DNA of 64,000 nt from Microcaldota archaeon. GTDB lineage: Archaea > Micrarchaeota > Micrarchaeia > Micrarchaeales > Micrarchaeaceae. The position numbers were made by a program, and so were the translations under genes. Under the pieces are notes generated by a model, which was not told the origin of the DNA, searched no databases, and saw only the letters and a list, made by a program, of their open reading frames with translations. The stretch is taken from the NCBI GenBank assembly GCA_021799475.1, contig JAJZAJ010000001.1:372001-436000 (forward strand). Reading direction: 5' to 3'. Of this stretch, positions 21,975-34,416 are shown piece after piece (position 1 is the stretch's first letter; every line of letters begins with the position of its first letter).

Positions 21975-22397
21975 TTAAAAGTTGCCACTTTCTATGGCCT
22001 TGCTATGCTCCTCAATGAAGGCCAAAGTCGCTTGAAACAGCGGCGCAGGAATCCGCAGGCTATCCAGAGTCATAGCTTTCTCTGTCTTTATCATCAGCTC
22101 CCTGCTCTCGAACTTTATGTCCTTTATGCTTATGTGGACTGCTTCGCCGATGCGAAGCCCGAACCGAGCCTGATACGAAAATAACAGCCTGAATTCCGCA
22201 TTGTCTATTACTTTGAAGACCTTGACCAGTTCTTGTTCAGTAAACCATTTGTTCAGGGAGCCATACTTAGGTATTCGGCTCCGCTGAAGCGTTTCCTGAA
22301 CTGCTGCATCACCATCTTCCGTATCTCTACGAGATGGTGTTTTGGTAGGTAAGGAAGAGTTTTGTCCAATTCGCTCTTTAAAGAGATGAATTGGGCT
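21975..22397 (-). pseudogene. Truncated tyrosine recombinase (integrase) fragment
   Basis: An open frame without a usable start codon whose translation contains KWFTEQELVKVFKVID and QARFGLRIGEAVHI, the latter holding the first catalytic Arg of tyrosine recombinases. It ends at a stop about 35 residues before the expected H-x-x-R and with no Tyr. It lies just beyond the 3' end of tRNA-Ala, the usual place for an archaeal integrase. Confidence 0.7.
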
Positions 22398-22477
22398 TTA
22401 GATTCGCACACGGGGACTGGTTGCACCAGACTGCCTTTGCTGGTTTCGCACACTGGCGTGTGGGCGGGATTTTTTAG

Positions 22478-22549
22478 TGGACTCGGCGGGATTTGAACCC
22501 GCAACCCCTACGTTGCGAACGTAGTGCGCTACCGTTACGCCACGAGCCC
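22478..22549 (-). tRNA. tRNA-Ala (anticodon CGC)
   Basis: A full cloverleaf on the minus strand: acceptor GGGCTCG/CGAGTCC (one G-U), D arm with GGTAGCGC, anticodon stem CTACG/CGTAG with loop TTCGCAA, T loop TTCAAAT. CCA is not encoded. Its 3' end borders the integrase remnant. Confidence 0.95.
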
Positions 22550-28780: not shown

Positions 28781-28921
28781 CCTTTGCAGGGAGAAAACCG
28801 AAGGGAACAAATGATATTTGCGACGGTAACTTCGGGTTCGGAAGGAAAAAGCAAAGCAAAAGGAACACGCGAAAAGACGGGTTCGGAACTTGTCTTGGTG
28901 ATTGTGCGAAAAGCGTAAAAG

Positions 28922-28942
28922 TTTCGTCTCCCTGCGACGAAA
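28922..28942 (+). repeat. Perfect hairpin touching the tRNA-Glu body
   Basis: TTTCGTC, loop TCCCTGC, GACGAAA: a 7-bp stem ending exactly at the base before tRNA position A14. It occupies the place where acceptor and D-stem 5' strands should be. Confidence 0.8.
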
Positions 28943-29007
28943 AGCTCGGTCAAGGACACGGCCCTCTCAAGGCCGAAACTCGGGTTCAAATCCCGAGGGG
29001 AGCACCA
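28943..29007 (+). tRNA. tRNA-Glu (anticodon CTC), positions 14-76 only
   Basis: From A14-G15 onward all canonical parts are present: D-loop GG, D-stem 3' strand GGAC, anticodon stem CGGCC/GGCCG with loop CTCTCAA, 4-base variable loop, T arm TCGGG-TTCAAAT-CCCGA, acceptor 3' strand GGGGAGC, A73 and CCA. No sequence within the preceding 200 bases can pair as acceptor GCTCCCC plus D-stem GTYY. It is therefore either the 3' piece of a split or intron-bearing tRNA, or a 3' fragment left by element integration. Confidence 0.75.
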
Positions 29008-29109
29008 CCAACGTTTTGTCGTCGAGAGGTGGTTTTCAATAAAAGTTCTGTCGTCGAAAAATACGGGGTTATATTACCCTTTTTTCACGCTATTGGAATG
29101 ACTCCTTTT

Positions 29110-29202
29110 AGATAGATAGATCACCGTGTATTTATCTATCTGGATAATATATACCCCTACACTTTATCACAAATAACAAATATATATAAATGTGTAGGGG
29201 TA
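29110..29202. promoter_or_regulatory. Two inverted repeats around the promoter of the first Fic gene
   Basis: AGATAGATA (29110-29118) pairs with TATCTATCT (29133-29141). TACCCCTACAC (29152-29162) pairs exactly with GTGTAGGGGTA (29192-29202), the arms flanking the TATA box ATATATATAA at about 29180-29190. The second pair is a likely operator for autorepression; the ATG at 29212 is leaderless. Confidence 0.6.
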
Positions 29203-29211
29203 AGTATAATC

Positions 29212-30117
29212 ATGGTAGAAATAAGGGAGAGGAAAACGGGAAATAACACGTATTACTATCTGGAGCACTCCTTCAGGCTTAATGGAAAGGTTGTGAAGAA
29301 GGAGCTTTACTTGGGCAAACAGATACCAAAGAACATAGACAGCATAAGGGCAAAGTTTCTTCAGGAAGTTTACAACCAAAAGTGGTATGTTCTGTTAGAC
29401 CGGATAAAGGCGAATTACAAAAAGGATATGAGATCCGCAACTGTATCAGAAAGAGAGAAAGAGCTTGAGGGGTTCATGATAAAGTTTACCTATGATACGC
29501 AGAGAATAGAGGGCTCCACGTTAAATCTCAAGGAAACTGCAAACCTACTACAGCATGGAATAACTCCGTCAAACAGACCGAGTAGGGATGTGAAGGAAAC
29601 AGAAGCACATTCAAAACTATTTTACGAAATGCTCGATTACAAAAAGGACTTAAATCTGCAAACAGTCCTGAGTTGGCATTACCTACTTTTTAGGGACACG
29701 AAGCCAGATATTGCTGGAAAAGTGAGGACTAGGCAAGTACTGATAGTTGCAACGAAATTTGTACCTCCCTCTCCCGCCGTTGTATCTGCCGAATTGAACG
29801 ATTTTTTCAAATGGTACAATAAAAACAAGGACAAGATACATCCAGTAGAATTAGCTGCGCTTGTGCATCTAAAGTTTGTGACGATCCACCCATTTGTGGA
29901 TGGGAACGGTCGTATGTCAAGGATTTTGATGAACTTTGTTTTAAATAAGCACGGTTATCCTATGCTTAATATCCCTTATGTTAATAGGGCTGGTTACTAC
30001 ACCTCACTAGAACGCGCTCAGGTTAAAAGGAATGATTTAGTGTTTGTTTCATGGTTCTTTAGGAGGTACGAAAAAGAGTACGGCAGATACGCGAAGACGC
30101 CACCATCTAAATCCTAA
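29212..30117 (+). CDS. Fic-domain AMPylase-type protein, class II (cassette 1)
   Basis: A 301-residue Fic/DOC protein. The catalytic motif HPFVDGNGR (226-234) is intact, and TQRIEG (96-101) is the inhibitory (S/T)xxxE(G/N) helix N-terminal to it, so the enzyme is self-restrained. The first 60 residues form a charged beta/helical domain shared with the second Fic protein. It would transfer AMP or another phosphate group onto a protein target. Part of a cassette ending in the 149-bp repeat. Confidence 0.9.
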   Translation: MVEIRERKTGNNTYYYLEHSFRLNGKVVKKELYLGKQIPKNIDSIRAKFLQEVYNQKWYVLLDRIKANYKKDMRSATVSEREKELEGFMIKFTYDTQRIEGSTLNLKETANLLQHGITPSNRPSRDVKETEAHSKLFYEMLDYKKDLNLQTVLSWHYLLFRDTKPDIAGKVRTRQVLIVATKFVPPSPAVVSAELNDFFKWYNKNKDKIHPVELAALVHLKFVTIHPFVDGNGRMSRILMNFVLNKHGYPMLNIPYVNRAGYYTSLERAQVKRNDLVFVSWFFRRYEKEYGRYAKTPPSKS

Positions 30118-30141
30118 TGCCCAGAATTAGTGTTTCGTCGG

Positions 30142-30290
30142 TTCCCGCTGCTCGACTCGCCCAGTAGCTATTGCCTCCCGGCTCGGACAGGGCGAAGAAC
30201 CAGTGCCTGATTCAATAGACTAATATGTTAAAGCATATAGATCAATATTGTTTGGGCAGGGATAATCCTTTACACGAGAACGAGGGGAGC
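30142..30290 (+). repeat. 149-bp cassette 3' element, copy 1
   Basis: Nearly identical to 31381-31528, most strictly in the first 60 and last 25 bases. It can fold: GGTTC (from 30140) pairs with GAACC, enclosing CTCGCCC/GGGCGA. It ends CGAGAACGAGGGGAGC, whose CGAGGGGAGC (plus AC beyond) repeats the acceptor end of tRNA-Glu. On the minus strand its first bases read GCTCCCCTCGTTC. No open frame of note; likely structured DNA/RNA. Confidence 0.8.
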
Positions 30291-30306
30291 ACAATCGACG
30301 ATAAAT

Positions 30307-30352
30307 CGACGACAGAATTAGGCAGATAGATTTTGATTGTTTTATCTACCTA
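30307..30352. repeat. Left-end motifs of cassette 2
   Basis: TCGACGACAGAA (30307-30318) is the reverse complement of TTCTGTCGTCGA at 29046-29057 in cassette 1. It is followed by an imperfect inverted repeat TAGGCAGATA / TATCTACCTA, resembling the GATAGA hairpin of cassette 1. So both cassettes share left-end as well as right-end structure. Confidence 0.6.
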
Positions 30353-30367
30353 ACTAAATTGCAGAAA

Positions 30368-31276
30368 CTAGTCAGGCAATGCAATTGTATACTGTGCAAG
30401 CATCTGCTCTGCCAAAAATACTGCAAAATTCTTTTGATCGCCCCTGTCCGCATGTTCAATACACGTGTAATACCGCTCCTTGTTTGTTACTTCTATTATC
30501 ACTGCGGGAAAACGGTTTCTTTGCAAAATCCAGTTCATCAGAAGCCTAGAAGTCCTTCCATTACCATCAGTAAATGGATGTATTTTTACCAACTTGTTGT
30601 GCATTAGCGTGGCGAGTTCTATCGGATGCAGTTCTTTCTTCTCTTTATTGTATTCTTCAAATAATTTTTGCATGAGCATGGGAACTTCTGAGGGCTTTGG
30701 TGGGATGTGTTCGGATCCTCCTATCCTAACTTCACTATCTCTGTAATCCCCCTGAATCCTACAATATGTATTTTTTGTTATCTCGTATTGGACCTTACAA
30801 ACGAACTTCTTGTTCAATTTTCCTCTATATTTTTTTACAAACTCCCATGCGTCTAAGGAGTTCAGAGCTTCAATCACGTCATTTGTTCTCGCCCCATCAG
30901 GCGCAATCTTATCAGAAAGCACTAAAGCCGTTTGCCTGAGTGTTAATTTGTTTCCCTCAATGGCGTTTGTGTTGTATGTATAACGTACAAGAAAATCCTT
31001 TGGTAAAACATCTCCCGGTGTTTTATGAAACACTACCACTGACGCCCTCAGATCCTCCAAATTTTCTACTAACTCTTTAGACAACCATTTGCCCTTATAC
31101 TCAGAGACTGCCTTTTTCTCTATCTCAAAGAGGTATTTTTGCAGCTCCTCGTGCTTTGGAACTTCTCTGCCCAGAAATATCCTTACCTTTTTTGCTTTTG
31201 TAGAAGATATTCTGACATTCTTGACTAGGTAATAATAGTAATGTTTTCCATGCCTCTGTTTTTCTATAAATGACAT
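30368..31276 (-). CDS. Fic-domain AMPylase-type protein, class II (cassette 2)
   Basis: About 302 residues from ATG 31276, chosen because it aligns with the first Fic protein and lies 24 bases after TTTAAATAT. Catalytic HPFTDGNGR (233-241) and inhibitory TNAIEG (103-108) are both intact. Clearly a paralogue of 29212-30117 but diverged, and encoded on the opposite strand of its cassette. Confidence 0.9.
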   Translation of the reverse strand: MSFIEKQRHGKHYYYYLVKNVRISSTKAKKVRIFLGREVPKHEELQKYLFEIEKKAVSEYKGKWLSKELVENLEDLRASVVVFHKTPGDVLPKDFLVRYTYNTNAIEGNKLTLRQTALVLSDKIAPDGARTNDVIEALNSLDAWEFVKKYRGKLNKKFVCKVQYEITKNTYCRIQGDYRDSEVRIGGSEHIPPKPSEVPMLMQKLFEEYNKEKKELHPIELATLMHNKLVKIHPFTDGNGRTSRLLMNWILQRNRFPAVIIEVTNKERYYTCIEHADRGDQKNFAVFLAEQMLAQYTIALPD

Positions 31277-31281
31277 ATGTA

Positions 31282-31317
31282 TGTCTACAACATTAAGATA
31301 TTTAAATCTTGTGGACA
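31282..31317. promoter_or_regulatory. Inverted repeat flanking the promoter of the second Fic gene
   Basis: TGTCTACAA (31282-31290) and TTGTGGACA (31309-31317) pair with one mismatch and flank the TATA-like TTTAAATAT, itself in a palindrome AGATATTTAAATCT. The same layout as in cassette 1 but a different sequence. Confidence 0.5.
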
Positions 31318-31380
31318 TAATGGCTACAAAAGAGCATACTTAGCAATATGTGGCCATATGCAATAAATCAGTAATCCTTT

Positions 31381-31528
31381 TTCCCGCTGCTCGACTCGCC
31401 AAGTAGCTATTGCCTCCCGGCTCGGACAGGGCGAAGAACAGTACCTGATTCAATAGCCTAATATGTTAAAGCGTATACGTCAATAGTGTTTGAGCAAGGG
31501 TAATCCTTTACACGAGAACGAGGGGAGC
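31381..31528 (+). repeat. 149-bp cassette 3' element, copy 2
   Basis: Second copy (148 bases, one deletion and about 15 substitutions relative to copy 1), again ending ACACGAGAACGAGGGGAGC. A tight hairpin GCCGTGG-AAA-CCACGGC (31527-31543) follows directly, then the glycosyltransferase gene, converging from the right. Confidence 0.8.
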
Positions 31529-31634
31529 CGTGGAAACCACGGCATTCCTATTTTGAAAATGCTGGCTGAAGGCGGTGGCATGGAAAAGCCCCTCAAATAA
31601 AAATACAGGAGAAGCCGCTTTTGGCACGCGAGGA

Positions 31635-32867
31635 CTATGCTTTTTCAGCAAGCCGTTTCATGGCTGTGACATATCCTTCTATTTGCTTATCTTTGCTGTA
31701 TGTCGCCGCAATATCCTGCGAAAGAGCAAGAAGCTCCTGCTGTTTTCTTTTGTCTGAGAAGAACAGCTTTATCTTGCCTGCCAGCTCCTCAACGCTGTAC
31801 GGATTAAATGTGAATAGCCTTCCATCAAACTGCTCTATTATATCTTCGTTGATGCTCTTTGTCGACAGCAGCAGAGGAACTCCGAAATATGCCGCTTCAA
31901 TGAAGTTTGCATTGAATGATTCCCAGAATGACGGGAGTACAAAAAGGTCGGCAAGGCCGTAGTAGCAGCTGAGGCGCTCGTCAGATATCTTTCCGGTAAG
32001 CACCATTATTCTCTTGTCGCCCTTCGCAAGGTTCCTATACGCTTCCTCAGACTTGCCGTTTCCGGCTACTATGAGTCTCATCGAACTGTCATCAATCGTT
32101 TCGAATGCCTTTATCAGCGTGCTTATGTTTTTCTGCATGTCCGCAAGCCTGCCCCACGAAAGGACTACTTTGTTGCTTTCGTCCAAACCGAGCTCCTTGC
32201 GCACTTCCTCAAGAGCCTTCCTGTCTATTTTTTTTACCGATATGAGCGGGCTGCTGTGTATTACGACGGCATTTTTATTATACTCTGTCACTTTCCTGTA
32301 CTGCTCCTTGTTGAGTGCGACTATCATGTCGAAGAACTTGAAAAACCGCTTCCTCGCGAAAGCCAACGGAACTGGAGCGCCTGTTCCAAACGTCAACGCG
32401 AGTATATTTCTGTCAAACATGCTGGAATAGATGCCGGAGGCGTTCGCATGCTCTACAAACACGAGCTTCGCATTTCCAAGATACTTCCTGATGGATTTGA
32501 GCAGCACGAAATCGTTTATGGAATTCGATATAACTACATCTGGTTTTATTTCCTCTATCCATTTCTCTACTCCTTTGATTTTCGTGCCAAGCAGCGAATG
32601 CAGCACCATATAATATCCGATCCTGACCGGTGTGGTCTCATTTATCATTCCGAGGCCGAGTCTTTCAACCGTATTTTTGAGCTTCTTCTGCTTCGGCGAC
32701 TCAATAAAGAACGCGTTTTTGTCGTCTTCCATGAAAACGGTCTTGCAACCGAGGTAATATGTCTCGAAACCTCTTTTCCTGAGCTCGTAGAACAGCGATG
32801 CGGAAACTCTCTGTGCGCCACCCAGTGCCCCTACTTTCGAACTTATGTCGACTACAAGAATTCTCAT
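31635..32867 (-). CDS. Glycosyltransferase, family 4 type
   Basis: A 410-residue GT-B fold enzyme. The N-terminal GGAQRVSASLFYEL motif is the usual nucleotide-sugar glycosyltransferase start, and VLPSFWESFNANFIEAAYFG is the E-x7-E donor-binding region of GT4. Probably acts on glycolipid or surface glycoprotein glycans. It overlaps the next upstream gene by four bases. Confidence 0.85.
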   Translation of the reverse strand: MRILVVDISSKVGALGGAQRVSASLFYELRKRGFETYYLGCKTVFMEDDKNAFFIESPKQKKLKNTVERLGLGMINETTPVRIGYYMVLHSLLGTKIKGVEKWIEEIKPDVVISNSINDFVLLKSIRKYLGNAKLVFVEHANASGIYSSMFDRNILALTFGTGAPVPLAFARKRFFKFFDMIVALNKEQYRKVTEYNKNAVVIHSSPLISVKKIDRKALEEVRKELGLDESNKVVLSWGRLADMQKNISTLIKAFETIDDSSMRLIVAGNGKSEEAYRNLAKGDKRIMVLTGKISDERLSCYYGLADLFVLPSFWESFNANFIEAAYFGVPLLLSTKSINEDIIEQFDGRLFTFNPYSVEELAGKIKLFFSDKRKQQELLALSQDIAATYSKDKQIEGYVTAMKRLAEKA

Positions 32868-34393
32868 ACTATCGGCCCATACCTGGGATCAGTATCATGC
32901 TTTATCCCAAAGAGCTTGAATACCGTCGGTGCGACGTTGTAGACATAGAGCTTCTGTCTCGCTATGGCTGCATAGTCTATCCTGTTCCCGTAGTTCAAGA
33001 TCCCGAATATCCCGTTGCGCAGGTGGTCGCCGCATTTTGCTGGTTCAGGTTTTATGAAAAGCTTGCCGCTCTTCAGGAAACCGAACGCATCCATTATATA
33101 GCCCGGTCTTATCTCTGCAAACACGTCTGGTGCAATAAACAGGTTAGTCCCTTCATAATAGCCGTCAGCATCCCACGTCTCTAGTATAATCTGCTCCTCT
33201 TTATCATTTTTCACTTTCATGAGCTCCTCCCTTATCTTCTGCTTCAGCGCCTGCTTCTCCTCCTGCTTTACTATTCCTTTGTCGAAACGTGAGTCGTTTA
33301 TATATATCGTGCACACCGGGCAGTTCGCTATGCTCGCAAAAGCGAGCGTCTTGCCCATATCGAAGTCAAAGTCGTGTATCCTCATATAGTCCCCTTCCGA
33401 TGTTCCGGAGAGTCCCTTCTTGACTATCGTCTTCACCACGTTTTTGCCGATTTTCGGAAGCTTGTCATACACCTTTTTTCTTAGCGTCGTTTTGAGCAAT
33501 TTCTCCCTCATGCTGTACTTAATCTTTCCGCCCCCGTTCTTCCTCATGCTTTTTTCTATCGACTCATCAAGTTTTATGAACCCGTTGTTTATCATCCAGC
33601 CGTTGGTAATGAATTTCTCATCGATTGGCTGCGCACCATGGTCGGATATAACCATTACTTCCGCTCCTTCCTTCTCTGCACGGGCATGCACCCACAGAAG
33701 GAAATCCGAAATCTCTTCGTAGAAAGGCATCACGAGATCCTTCCATTCAGGTTTGTTTAGTGAGAAATGCTGCATCCTGTCCTGCTCAGTAAAGCATATA
33801 AACGCAAGGTCATAATCCCCTCCATCTATAAGCTCCTTGCTCACGGCTATCCTCTTCTTTGTCCCGCCGCCAAGGTAGATGCTTGCGGAGTCCTTCAGCG
33901 AAAGCTCCCCGCTCTTCATCTCTTTCTCTATTTCAGGCTCTCCGGAAAAGCCGTGCTTGCCTGCAATGTCCCTGATTCTCTTCGAGGAAAATTTTGCAGG
34001 AAGCGGAAATCCCGTTATCATGTCGACATTCGGCTCGTCTGAAGGCTTGACGAGCATGGCAGGAGTGACTACGAGGCACTTGTAGCCCTGTTTCGCCATC
34101 ACATCCCAAAAAGGCGCCTTTATCCTGGTATCGTAGTAAACCACGCTCTTCGTGTAATTTCTCTCCATCTTCAGGAACTCCGGAACGCCATGCGCTCCGG
34201 GCCGGAATCCGGTGTATATGCTGGGCCATGACGGCCCGGTCATGGGCGGCATTGTCGACTCCATATCCATCAGCACTCCTTCATCGAGAAACTTAGTGAA
34301 TCCGGAGAGCCTGTACTGCTTCTGCAGATCCTTGATTATCCAGAGCGGTGCCGAATCTACTCCTATAATATACAGCTTCTTCCTGCCATCCAT
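32864..34393 (-). CDS. Type I phosphodiesterase / alkaline phosphatase superfamily protein
   Basis: About 509 residues. GVDSAPLW begins the metal site, MPPMTGPSWPSIYTG contains the nucleophile Thr/Ser, and VISDHGAQ the second metal-binding D-H pair. Archaeal relatives act on nucleotides or surface phosphoesters. Next to a glycosyltransferase, a role in glycan or lipid-linked phosphate handling is possible. ATG 34393 is chosen over GTG 34402. Confidence 0.85.
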   Translation of the reverse strand: MDGRKKLYIIGVDSAPLWIIKDLQKQYRLSGFTKFLDEGVLMDMESTMPPMTGPSWPSIYTGFRPGAHGVPEFLKMERNYTKSVVYYDTRIKAPFWDVMAKQGYKCLVVTPAMLVKPSDEPNVDMITGFPLPAKFSSKRIRDIAGKHGFSGEPEIEKEMKSGELSLKDSASIYLGGGTKKRIAVSKELIDGGDYDLAFICFTEQDRMQHFSLNKPEWKDLVMPFYEEISDFLLWVHARAEKEGAEVMVISDHGAQPIDEKFITNGWMINNGFIKLDESIEKSMRKNGGGKIKYSMREKLLKTTLRKKVYDKLPKIGKNVVKTIVKKGLSGTSEGDYMRIHDFDFDMGKTLAFASIANCPVCTIYINDSRFDKGIVKQEEKQALKQKIREELMKVKNDKEEQIILETWDADGYYEGTNLFIAPDVFAEIRPGYIMDAFGFLKSGKLFIKPEPAKCGDHLRNGIFGILNYGNRIDYAAIARQKLYVYNVAPTVFKLFGIKHDTDPRYGPIV

Positions 34394-34416
34394 AAAACGC
34401 ACGGTTTGTGTTGACC

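Follow-up and report, generated by a model that had tools for sequence, protein, structure and literature searches.

What are the two tandem Fic units that lie behind a tRNA-Glu sequence in an 814-kb Micrarchaeota genome (the source genome, G000), and by which route did they arrive there? They are contained in the stretch G000:C3:372001-436000, 64,000 nucleotides in length and referred to as the window in the following (positions without a contig label are window positions). A first-pass annotation had taken them either for a mobile unit moved in trans or for gene cassettes added at the 3' end of a tRNA. Our analysis makes it likely that the units are integrase-less integrative mini-elements, i.e., single cargo genes placed between the attachment arms of a tRNA-Glu-specific tyrosine-integrase element. 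The gain and loss of defence and toxin genes in the small genomes of DPANN archaea is poorly understood; an integrating family with single-gene satellites would give a concrete route of gene exchange in these lineages.

Boundaries and cargo of the two Fic units

Both units are real and have the ends that the first-pass annotation had drawn (29005-30290 and 30291-31528). From left to right, the array consists of chromosome, an internally deleted element of the int312 integrase type, the Fic1 unit, the Fic2 unit and again chromosome:

28799-28885, + strand: left-end remnant of an int312-type integrase element (AATGATATTTGCGACGG...), 86-90% identical to G009:C12, G010:C36 and G011:C6
28800-28809, + strand: leftmost core GAAGGGAACA, the left chromosome junction, at a non-tRNA (secondary) site
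28871-29005, + strand: right-end remnant of the int312-type element, including the 61-nt tRNA-Glu copy; the G011:C6 element has a right end 91% identical to it over 137 nt
28944-29004, + strand: 5'-truncated tRNA-Glu(CTC) copy, an attachment site and not a gene
28994-29004, + strand: core 1, CGAGGGGAGCA
29005-29074, + strand: left arm of the Fic1 cassette; the motif TGTCGTCGA occurs in it twice (29016-29025 and 29048-29057)
29110-29141, + strand: hairpin AGATAGAT...ATCTATCT upstream of Fic1
29212-30117, + strand: Fic1, class II Fic protein of 301 amino acids (aa), cargo of cassette 1 (Pfam Fic, E 1.7e-23)
30142-30185, + strand: half of a dispersed, palindromic REP-like repeat of the genus, fused to the right arm
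30186-30280, + strand: right attachment arm of cassette 1
30281-30291, + strand: core 2, CGAGGGGAGCA
30292-30361, + strand: left arm of the Fic2 cassette, with CGACGATAAATCGACGACAGAA and an inversely oriented TTCTGTCGTCGA
30320-30351, + strand: hairpin AGGCAGATA...TATCTACCT just 3' of the Fic2 stop codon
30368-31318, - strand: Fic2, class II Fic protein of 316 aa, cargo of cassette 2 (Pfam Fic, E 9e-25)
31381-31528, + strand: right end of cassette 2 (REP half and arm)
31519-31528, + strand: core 3, CGAGGGGAGC, with the right chromosome junction CGTGGAAACC
Chromosomal site flanking the array, written as an empty site: ..CCGAAGGGA[AG]C / CGTGGAAACC..

The right ends of the two units (30142-30290 and 31381-31528) are identical at 138 of 149 positions, and both terminate in CGAGGGGAGC, a 10-mer that occurs exactly three times in the window (28994, 30281 and 31519), in every case at a boundary, and has no further match there when one mismatch is allowed. 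Motif and arm searches covered 14 genomes of the genus; genomes are labelled in the manner of G000 or G013. Among the 14, GAACGARGGGAGC has seven matches, each located at such a boundary, while its reversed control has none. The left-end 12-mer TTCTGTCGTCGA is found twice in the whole 814-kb genome, once at each Fic left end and in opposite orientations, so that the shared left-end motif noted previously is substantiated. The GATAGA hairpins described together with it do exist and have no counterpart at the other left ends compared.

Pfam matches and motifs agree with the earlier description of one intact class II Fic gene per unit, the two being oppositely oriented. Both open reading frames encode HPFxDGNGRxxR as well as the class II inhibitory TxxxEG, which correspond to the class-defining HxFx(D/E)GNGRxxR and N-terminal (S/T)xxxE(G/N) and are located at residues 226 and 96, respectively, in Fic1 and at residues 247 and 117 in Fic2. 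As the two proteins are merely 33% identical, unit 2 is not a copy of unit 1: the repeat is shared, the cargo is not. No recombinase is encoded within either unit, just as had been stated.

The right arm, its integrase and related cassettes

Tyrosine-recombinase elements of a family that integrates at tRNA genes have a right attachment arm, and the 149-bp right end is this arm with half of a repetitive extragenic palindromic (REP) sequence fused to its left side. It is, thus, a composite, of which the first 44 bp (30142-30185) constitute the REP half and the remainder (30186-30290) arm plus core, the core CGARGGGAGC(A) of 10-11 bp being the 3' end of tRNA-Glu. Palindromic repeats of this REP- or miniature inverted-repeat transposable element (MITE)-like kind (GGCGGTTCCCGCTGCTCGACTCGCCC...GCTCGCAGCGACCGCC) are dispersed in the genus (L007, L008, L010, L011, L013, L014 and others); in G000, they are found as halves in the two Fic units and nowhere else.

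The third copy of the arm in this genome is located at C1:53197-53311, ends in ...ACACGAGAACGAAGGGAGCA and is 93% identical over 115 bp to the Fic1 arm. It forms the right end of an apparently complete integrative element of 17.4 kb (C1:35912-53310) that starts at tRNA-Glu(TTC) (C1:35838-35912; GAAGGGAGCA). At the left end of this element, 74 nt behind the tRNA, begins the gene for a 400-aa integrase, int400 (C1:35986-37185; Phage_integrase, E 9e-23), and with an integrase gene and a tRNA 3' end duplicated at both ends the element has the properties of a tRNA-targeted integrative element. Its right end carries the reverse transcriptase of a diversity-generating retroelement (DGR), the last codons of which (PARTGRRTSA, stop) are, in the Fic units, still encoded by the arm and the bases preceding it. 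Given these retained codons and the REP half, the Fic units look like derivatives of such an element in which a Fic gene has replaced nearly everything.

A sequence-only model of the arm returned six strong copies (>67 bits), all ending at a tRNA-Glu core. These are the copies that had first been found by BLAST and used to build the model, so none had been missed; for five of the six, the way in which the model was built made this outcome predictable. The single new and weaker match (G013:C7, E 3.8e-5) belongs to an element with a 47%-identical integrase at a different tRNA, and here the last 11 bases of the arm, CGCCCCCGCCA, are those of that tRNA's 3' end. The occurrence of the arm with a different core at a different tRNA assigns the last ~10 bases to the recombination core and everything before them to the arm. 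The integrase family is represented in 25 of 80 related genomes in two families. Of the 30 loci checked, 26 have a tRNA directly upstream, namely a tRNA gene in 25 cases (ARAGORN) and a tRNA 3' end in one; copies that are at least 76% identical all reside at tRNA-Glu, others at tRNAs for Asn, Gly, Thr, Asp, Val and more. An int312-type integrase (63% identical) at G000:C1:210126-210638 adjoins tRNA-Leu(TAG), so this second integrase family also uses other tRNAs.

Several features of the 17-kb element deserve mention in their own right. In its DGR (L149:16697-18831, G000:C1), the first 17 mismatches between template and variable repeat all fall on template adenines, and a run of 11 G breaks the reverse transcriptase into two frames, which may be a sequencing error. 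The element also encodes a prokaryotic Argonaute (L149:10124-13079; PADLOC pAgo class I, E 7e-147) that adjoins a Schlafen AlbA_2/Ago-associated partner beside genes resembling type III restriction-modification and AbiE systems. A left end of ~54 nt (AATG.TATTTGGGGTTATATATAAGTC.CTCAAATG) is present behind the element on C1 and behind tRNA-Glu(CTC) on C2, precedes different small genes at the two tRNA-Glu loci and perhaps belongs to another cassette type.

Units of ~1.2 kb, usually with one cargo gene, are not confined to the window. Cores at both ends flank a third Fic gene (G013:C2), an AAA/DUF4143 ATPase gene (G013:C8) and, in G009:C12, small units with HicAB plus a 124-aa gene, an HhH-GPD glycosylase and an HD protein. 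The same right arm is found only in the G013:C2 Fic and the HicAB units, i.e., in two other species, whereas in the rest the same core is preceded by right ends of other kinds. Left arms likewise recur: that of Fic1 has a left-end counterpart beside other cargo in G009:C12 (79% identity over 67 nt), and that of Fic2 is encountered in G013:C8 and, more weakly, in a toxin-antitoxin unit of G000 (C2:38616; L107:8605-9285), in which a truncated tRNA-Glu behind an ScpB-like gene is followed by a ParE-like toxin-antitoxin pair and for which no right core was found. The genes upstream of tRNA-Glu(CTC) are common to nine genomes, and the downstream content differs wherever the contig continues. When all GTDB and viral contigs were scanned with the pattern, the matches outside two Micrarchaeota genomes looked like chance; taking both strands of 257 Gb and an 18-mer with one ambiguity, we estimate that ~15 are expected, and the two matches inspected were unrelated GC-rich sequence. 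The repeat is accordingly not fixed at one position in all relatives, and Fic genes and repeats do occur together as units, the two points on which the earlier proposal could have failed.

The chromosomal site and the origin of the array

The 'tRNA-Glu' of the window is a 61-nt 3' piece reaching from the D loop to the acceptor 3' end. ARAGORN makes no tRNA call at 28944-29004, the Rfam score is 30.5 bits, and the intact tRNA-Glu(CTC) is located at C2:18178-18252. The cores do repeat the tRNA-Glu 3' end, as had been noticed; the tRNA behind which the units lie is a truncated copy. A split or permuted tRNA-Glu was ruled out, as the intact gene is present on C2 and the 3' piece is found again at the right ends of int312-type elements. 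The piece belongs to an int312 element (28799-29005) whose left and right ends are fused and which has been reduced to ~0.2 kb by internal deletion; the left 87 bp of the remnant match the stretch that leads from the core to the integrase in G009, G010 and G011. Since the leftmost core (28800) lies outside any tRNA, the array occupies a secondary site. The proposed mobility in trans with cassettes added at a tRNA 3' end is, thus, in keeping with the core, the arm of an integrase element and the variable cargo and loci, with the qualification that the target was not a working tRNA.

The chromosome left of the array is common to the relatives up to the region upstream of tRNA-Leu. As judged from sequence, the relatives read have a peptidase gene and tRNA-Leu followed within a few hundred bases by the gene for tyrosyl-tRNA synthetase, with the exceptions of G005, where another gene precedes the latter, and G007, where the contig ends. 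The array is absent from every relative whose sequence was inspected at this locus. G000 has the array, a glycosyltransferase gene and a phosphodiesterase-like gene between tRNA-Leu and the tyrosyl-tRNA synthetase gene. The latter two genes (31635-34402), which lie between the array and the synthetase gene, may represent a further insertion. Further upstream, a weak integrase fragment (22071-22250; 24.5 bits, below the cut-off) behind tRNA-Ala(CGC) (22477-22549) is perhaps another element remnant.

The units are best read as integrase-less cargo cassettes, similar to satellites or cis-mobilizable elements (CIMEs), that accreted in tandem and were probably mobilised in trans. In a circularised cassette, right arm, core and left arm would together form an attP; given an integrase in trans, the circle would be inserted at any copy of the core, which would generate tandem arrays. 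The helper would most likely be int400 of the 17.4-kb C1 element because it has the same right arm. The sequences themselves show the boundaries, the shared arms, the modularity of arm and core, the lack of the array in relatives, the variable content behind orthologous tRNA-Glu genes and the recent transfer of Fic1; from these we infer excision and circularisation, the identity of the helper and present mobility as opposed to decay into relics. Enzyme, core and set of arms are now defined for testing.

Several points weigh against this explanation. Neither an excised circle nor a clean attB was seen, and nearly all of the genomes compared are draft assemblies with many contigs. The left arm is the weakest point: the Fic left arms have no significant match to the int400 left arm of G000, and the best score against an int400 left arm, that of the G013 copy, is 23, when shuffled sequences reach up to 22; a different integrase could therefore be the helper. 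The history of Fic1 points both ways. It is 98.3% identical at the nucleotide level over 1015 bp to a gene in G011:C3, against ~67-70% in the longer matches of chromosomal DNA shared by G000 and G011, which indicates a recent horizontal transfer of Fic1 and speaks for the explanation. In G011, however, the gene is followed by a complete REP-like repeat with neither arm nor core, its left side being lost at the contig end, and Fic1 may therefore have moved by another route. One possible reading is that it was joined to the resident arm by recombination inside the REP-like repeat.

The main rival assumes decay and accretion without independent movement of cassettes, the units being dead remnants of full elements that lost their integrase. 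Such CIME accretion is a known route (PMC5704250), an int312 element decayed to ~0.2 kb lies directly to the left, and the retained reverse transcriptase codons are what an internal deletion predicts. On the other hand, several units of 0.9-1.6 kb, mostly with one gene or one toxin-antitoxin pair, are found with intact open reading frames in three species and resemble selected cargo more than debris, and the two Fic units have the same REP-arm junction although their genes are only 33% identical. We regard this origin as possible, if on balance doubtful.

Independently mobilised passengers of the int400 element remain the preferred explanation, and what the units look like is stripped-down derivatives of that element rather than RNA-marked or IS605-like units. 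The first-pass annotation had tentatively compared the 149-bp repeat with the structured boundary RNAs of IS605-type elements. A functional structured RNA, whether of the omega-RNA or another boundary type, would suit a conserved inverted repeat at an element end, but the fold z-score is only -1.5, the covariation term -0.08, Rfam gives no match, TnpA or TnpB is not linked, and the terminal bases follow the tRNA target as an attachment core does. The separation of arm and core in G013:C7 likewise argues against it. Such an RNA is very improbable. The only TnpB-type match in the genome (C3:155189-155386) is ~250 kb away with none in the array, and a link to IS605/TnpB was discarded. A retroelement or short interspersed nuclear element, considered on account of the reverse transcriptase beside the C1 copy, was likewise rejected, since the 17-kb element has this enzyme as part of its DGR and copies of the arm exist without it. 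Segmental duplication, by which local recombination would have copied the right end with the Fic genes as mere neighbours, fits two tandem copies of 93% identity and is nevertheless exceedingly improbable and not tenable in view of dispersed arm copies at tRNA-Glu cores in other loci and species, cores that equal the tRNA 3' end, and left ends that recur elsewhere.

Comparison with known systems

Like MITEs, the Fic units are non-autonomous and carry only the ends of an autonomous element; they differ in using a site-specific recombinase and a core instead of a transposase and terminal inverted repeats, and in carrying a cargo gene. Tycheposons and related satellites combine a tRNA-targeting tyrosine recombinase with cargo. 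Together with other tRNA-targeting satellites, tycheposons are listed among the phage satellites (PMC11389934). The Fic units reside in different hosts, are much smaller and have no packaging genes that were seen. IS200/IS605 or TnpB/omega-RNA elements are characterised by linked TnpA/TnpB and a structured boundary RNA, neither of which accompanies the Fic units.

Integron gene cassettes and clusters of attC sites lacking integron-integrases (CALINs) are known in Archaea (PMC9668308), and the main text of that study does not mention Micrarchaeota. The likeness lies in an array of small units with one gene and one recombination site each, cargo of the toxin-antitoxin or defence type and a tyrosine recombinase encoded elsewhere that can act in trans. 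The site differs, however, being a long arm with a tRNA-derived, target-dependent core and without a covarying fold, and not an attC recombined as a folded strand with R boxes. Nor is int400 an IntI: it scores 54.6 against the 265-bit cut-off of the integron-integrase model, and its best model is recomb_XerA_Arch, itself below cut-off. A functional analogue of integrons in Micrarchaeota, in which an XerA-like integrase in trans would collect and reshuffle single-gene defence and toxin-antitoxin cassettes that carry only arms, at tRNA-Glu-derived sites and with cargo captured via REP repeats, appears unlikely to us.

Reports of arrays such as the present one were not found in the literature searched, which does not prove that none exists. 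The closest likeness is to CIMEs, which together with the tandem accretion of integrative elements at tRNA genes have been reviewed (PMC5704250). As in CIMEs, the integration genes are lost while attL and attR are kept, here as cores and arms on both sides, and the units follow one another head to tail, next to complete and decayed elements, at duplicated tRNA 3' ends; the order here is int312 remnant, Fic1 and Fic2, each ending in the tRNA-Glu core. Relaxase or conjugation genes were not noticed in the regions read. The differences are the tiny size of the Fic units (~1.2 kb), their occurrence in Micrarchaeota at a non-tRNA site and a right arm shared with a resident element outside the tandem. 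We accordingly file the array under integrase-less accreted elements, a known type that is here present in Micrarchaeota with single-gene cargo.

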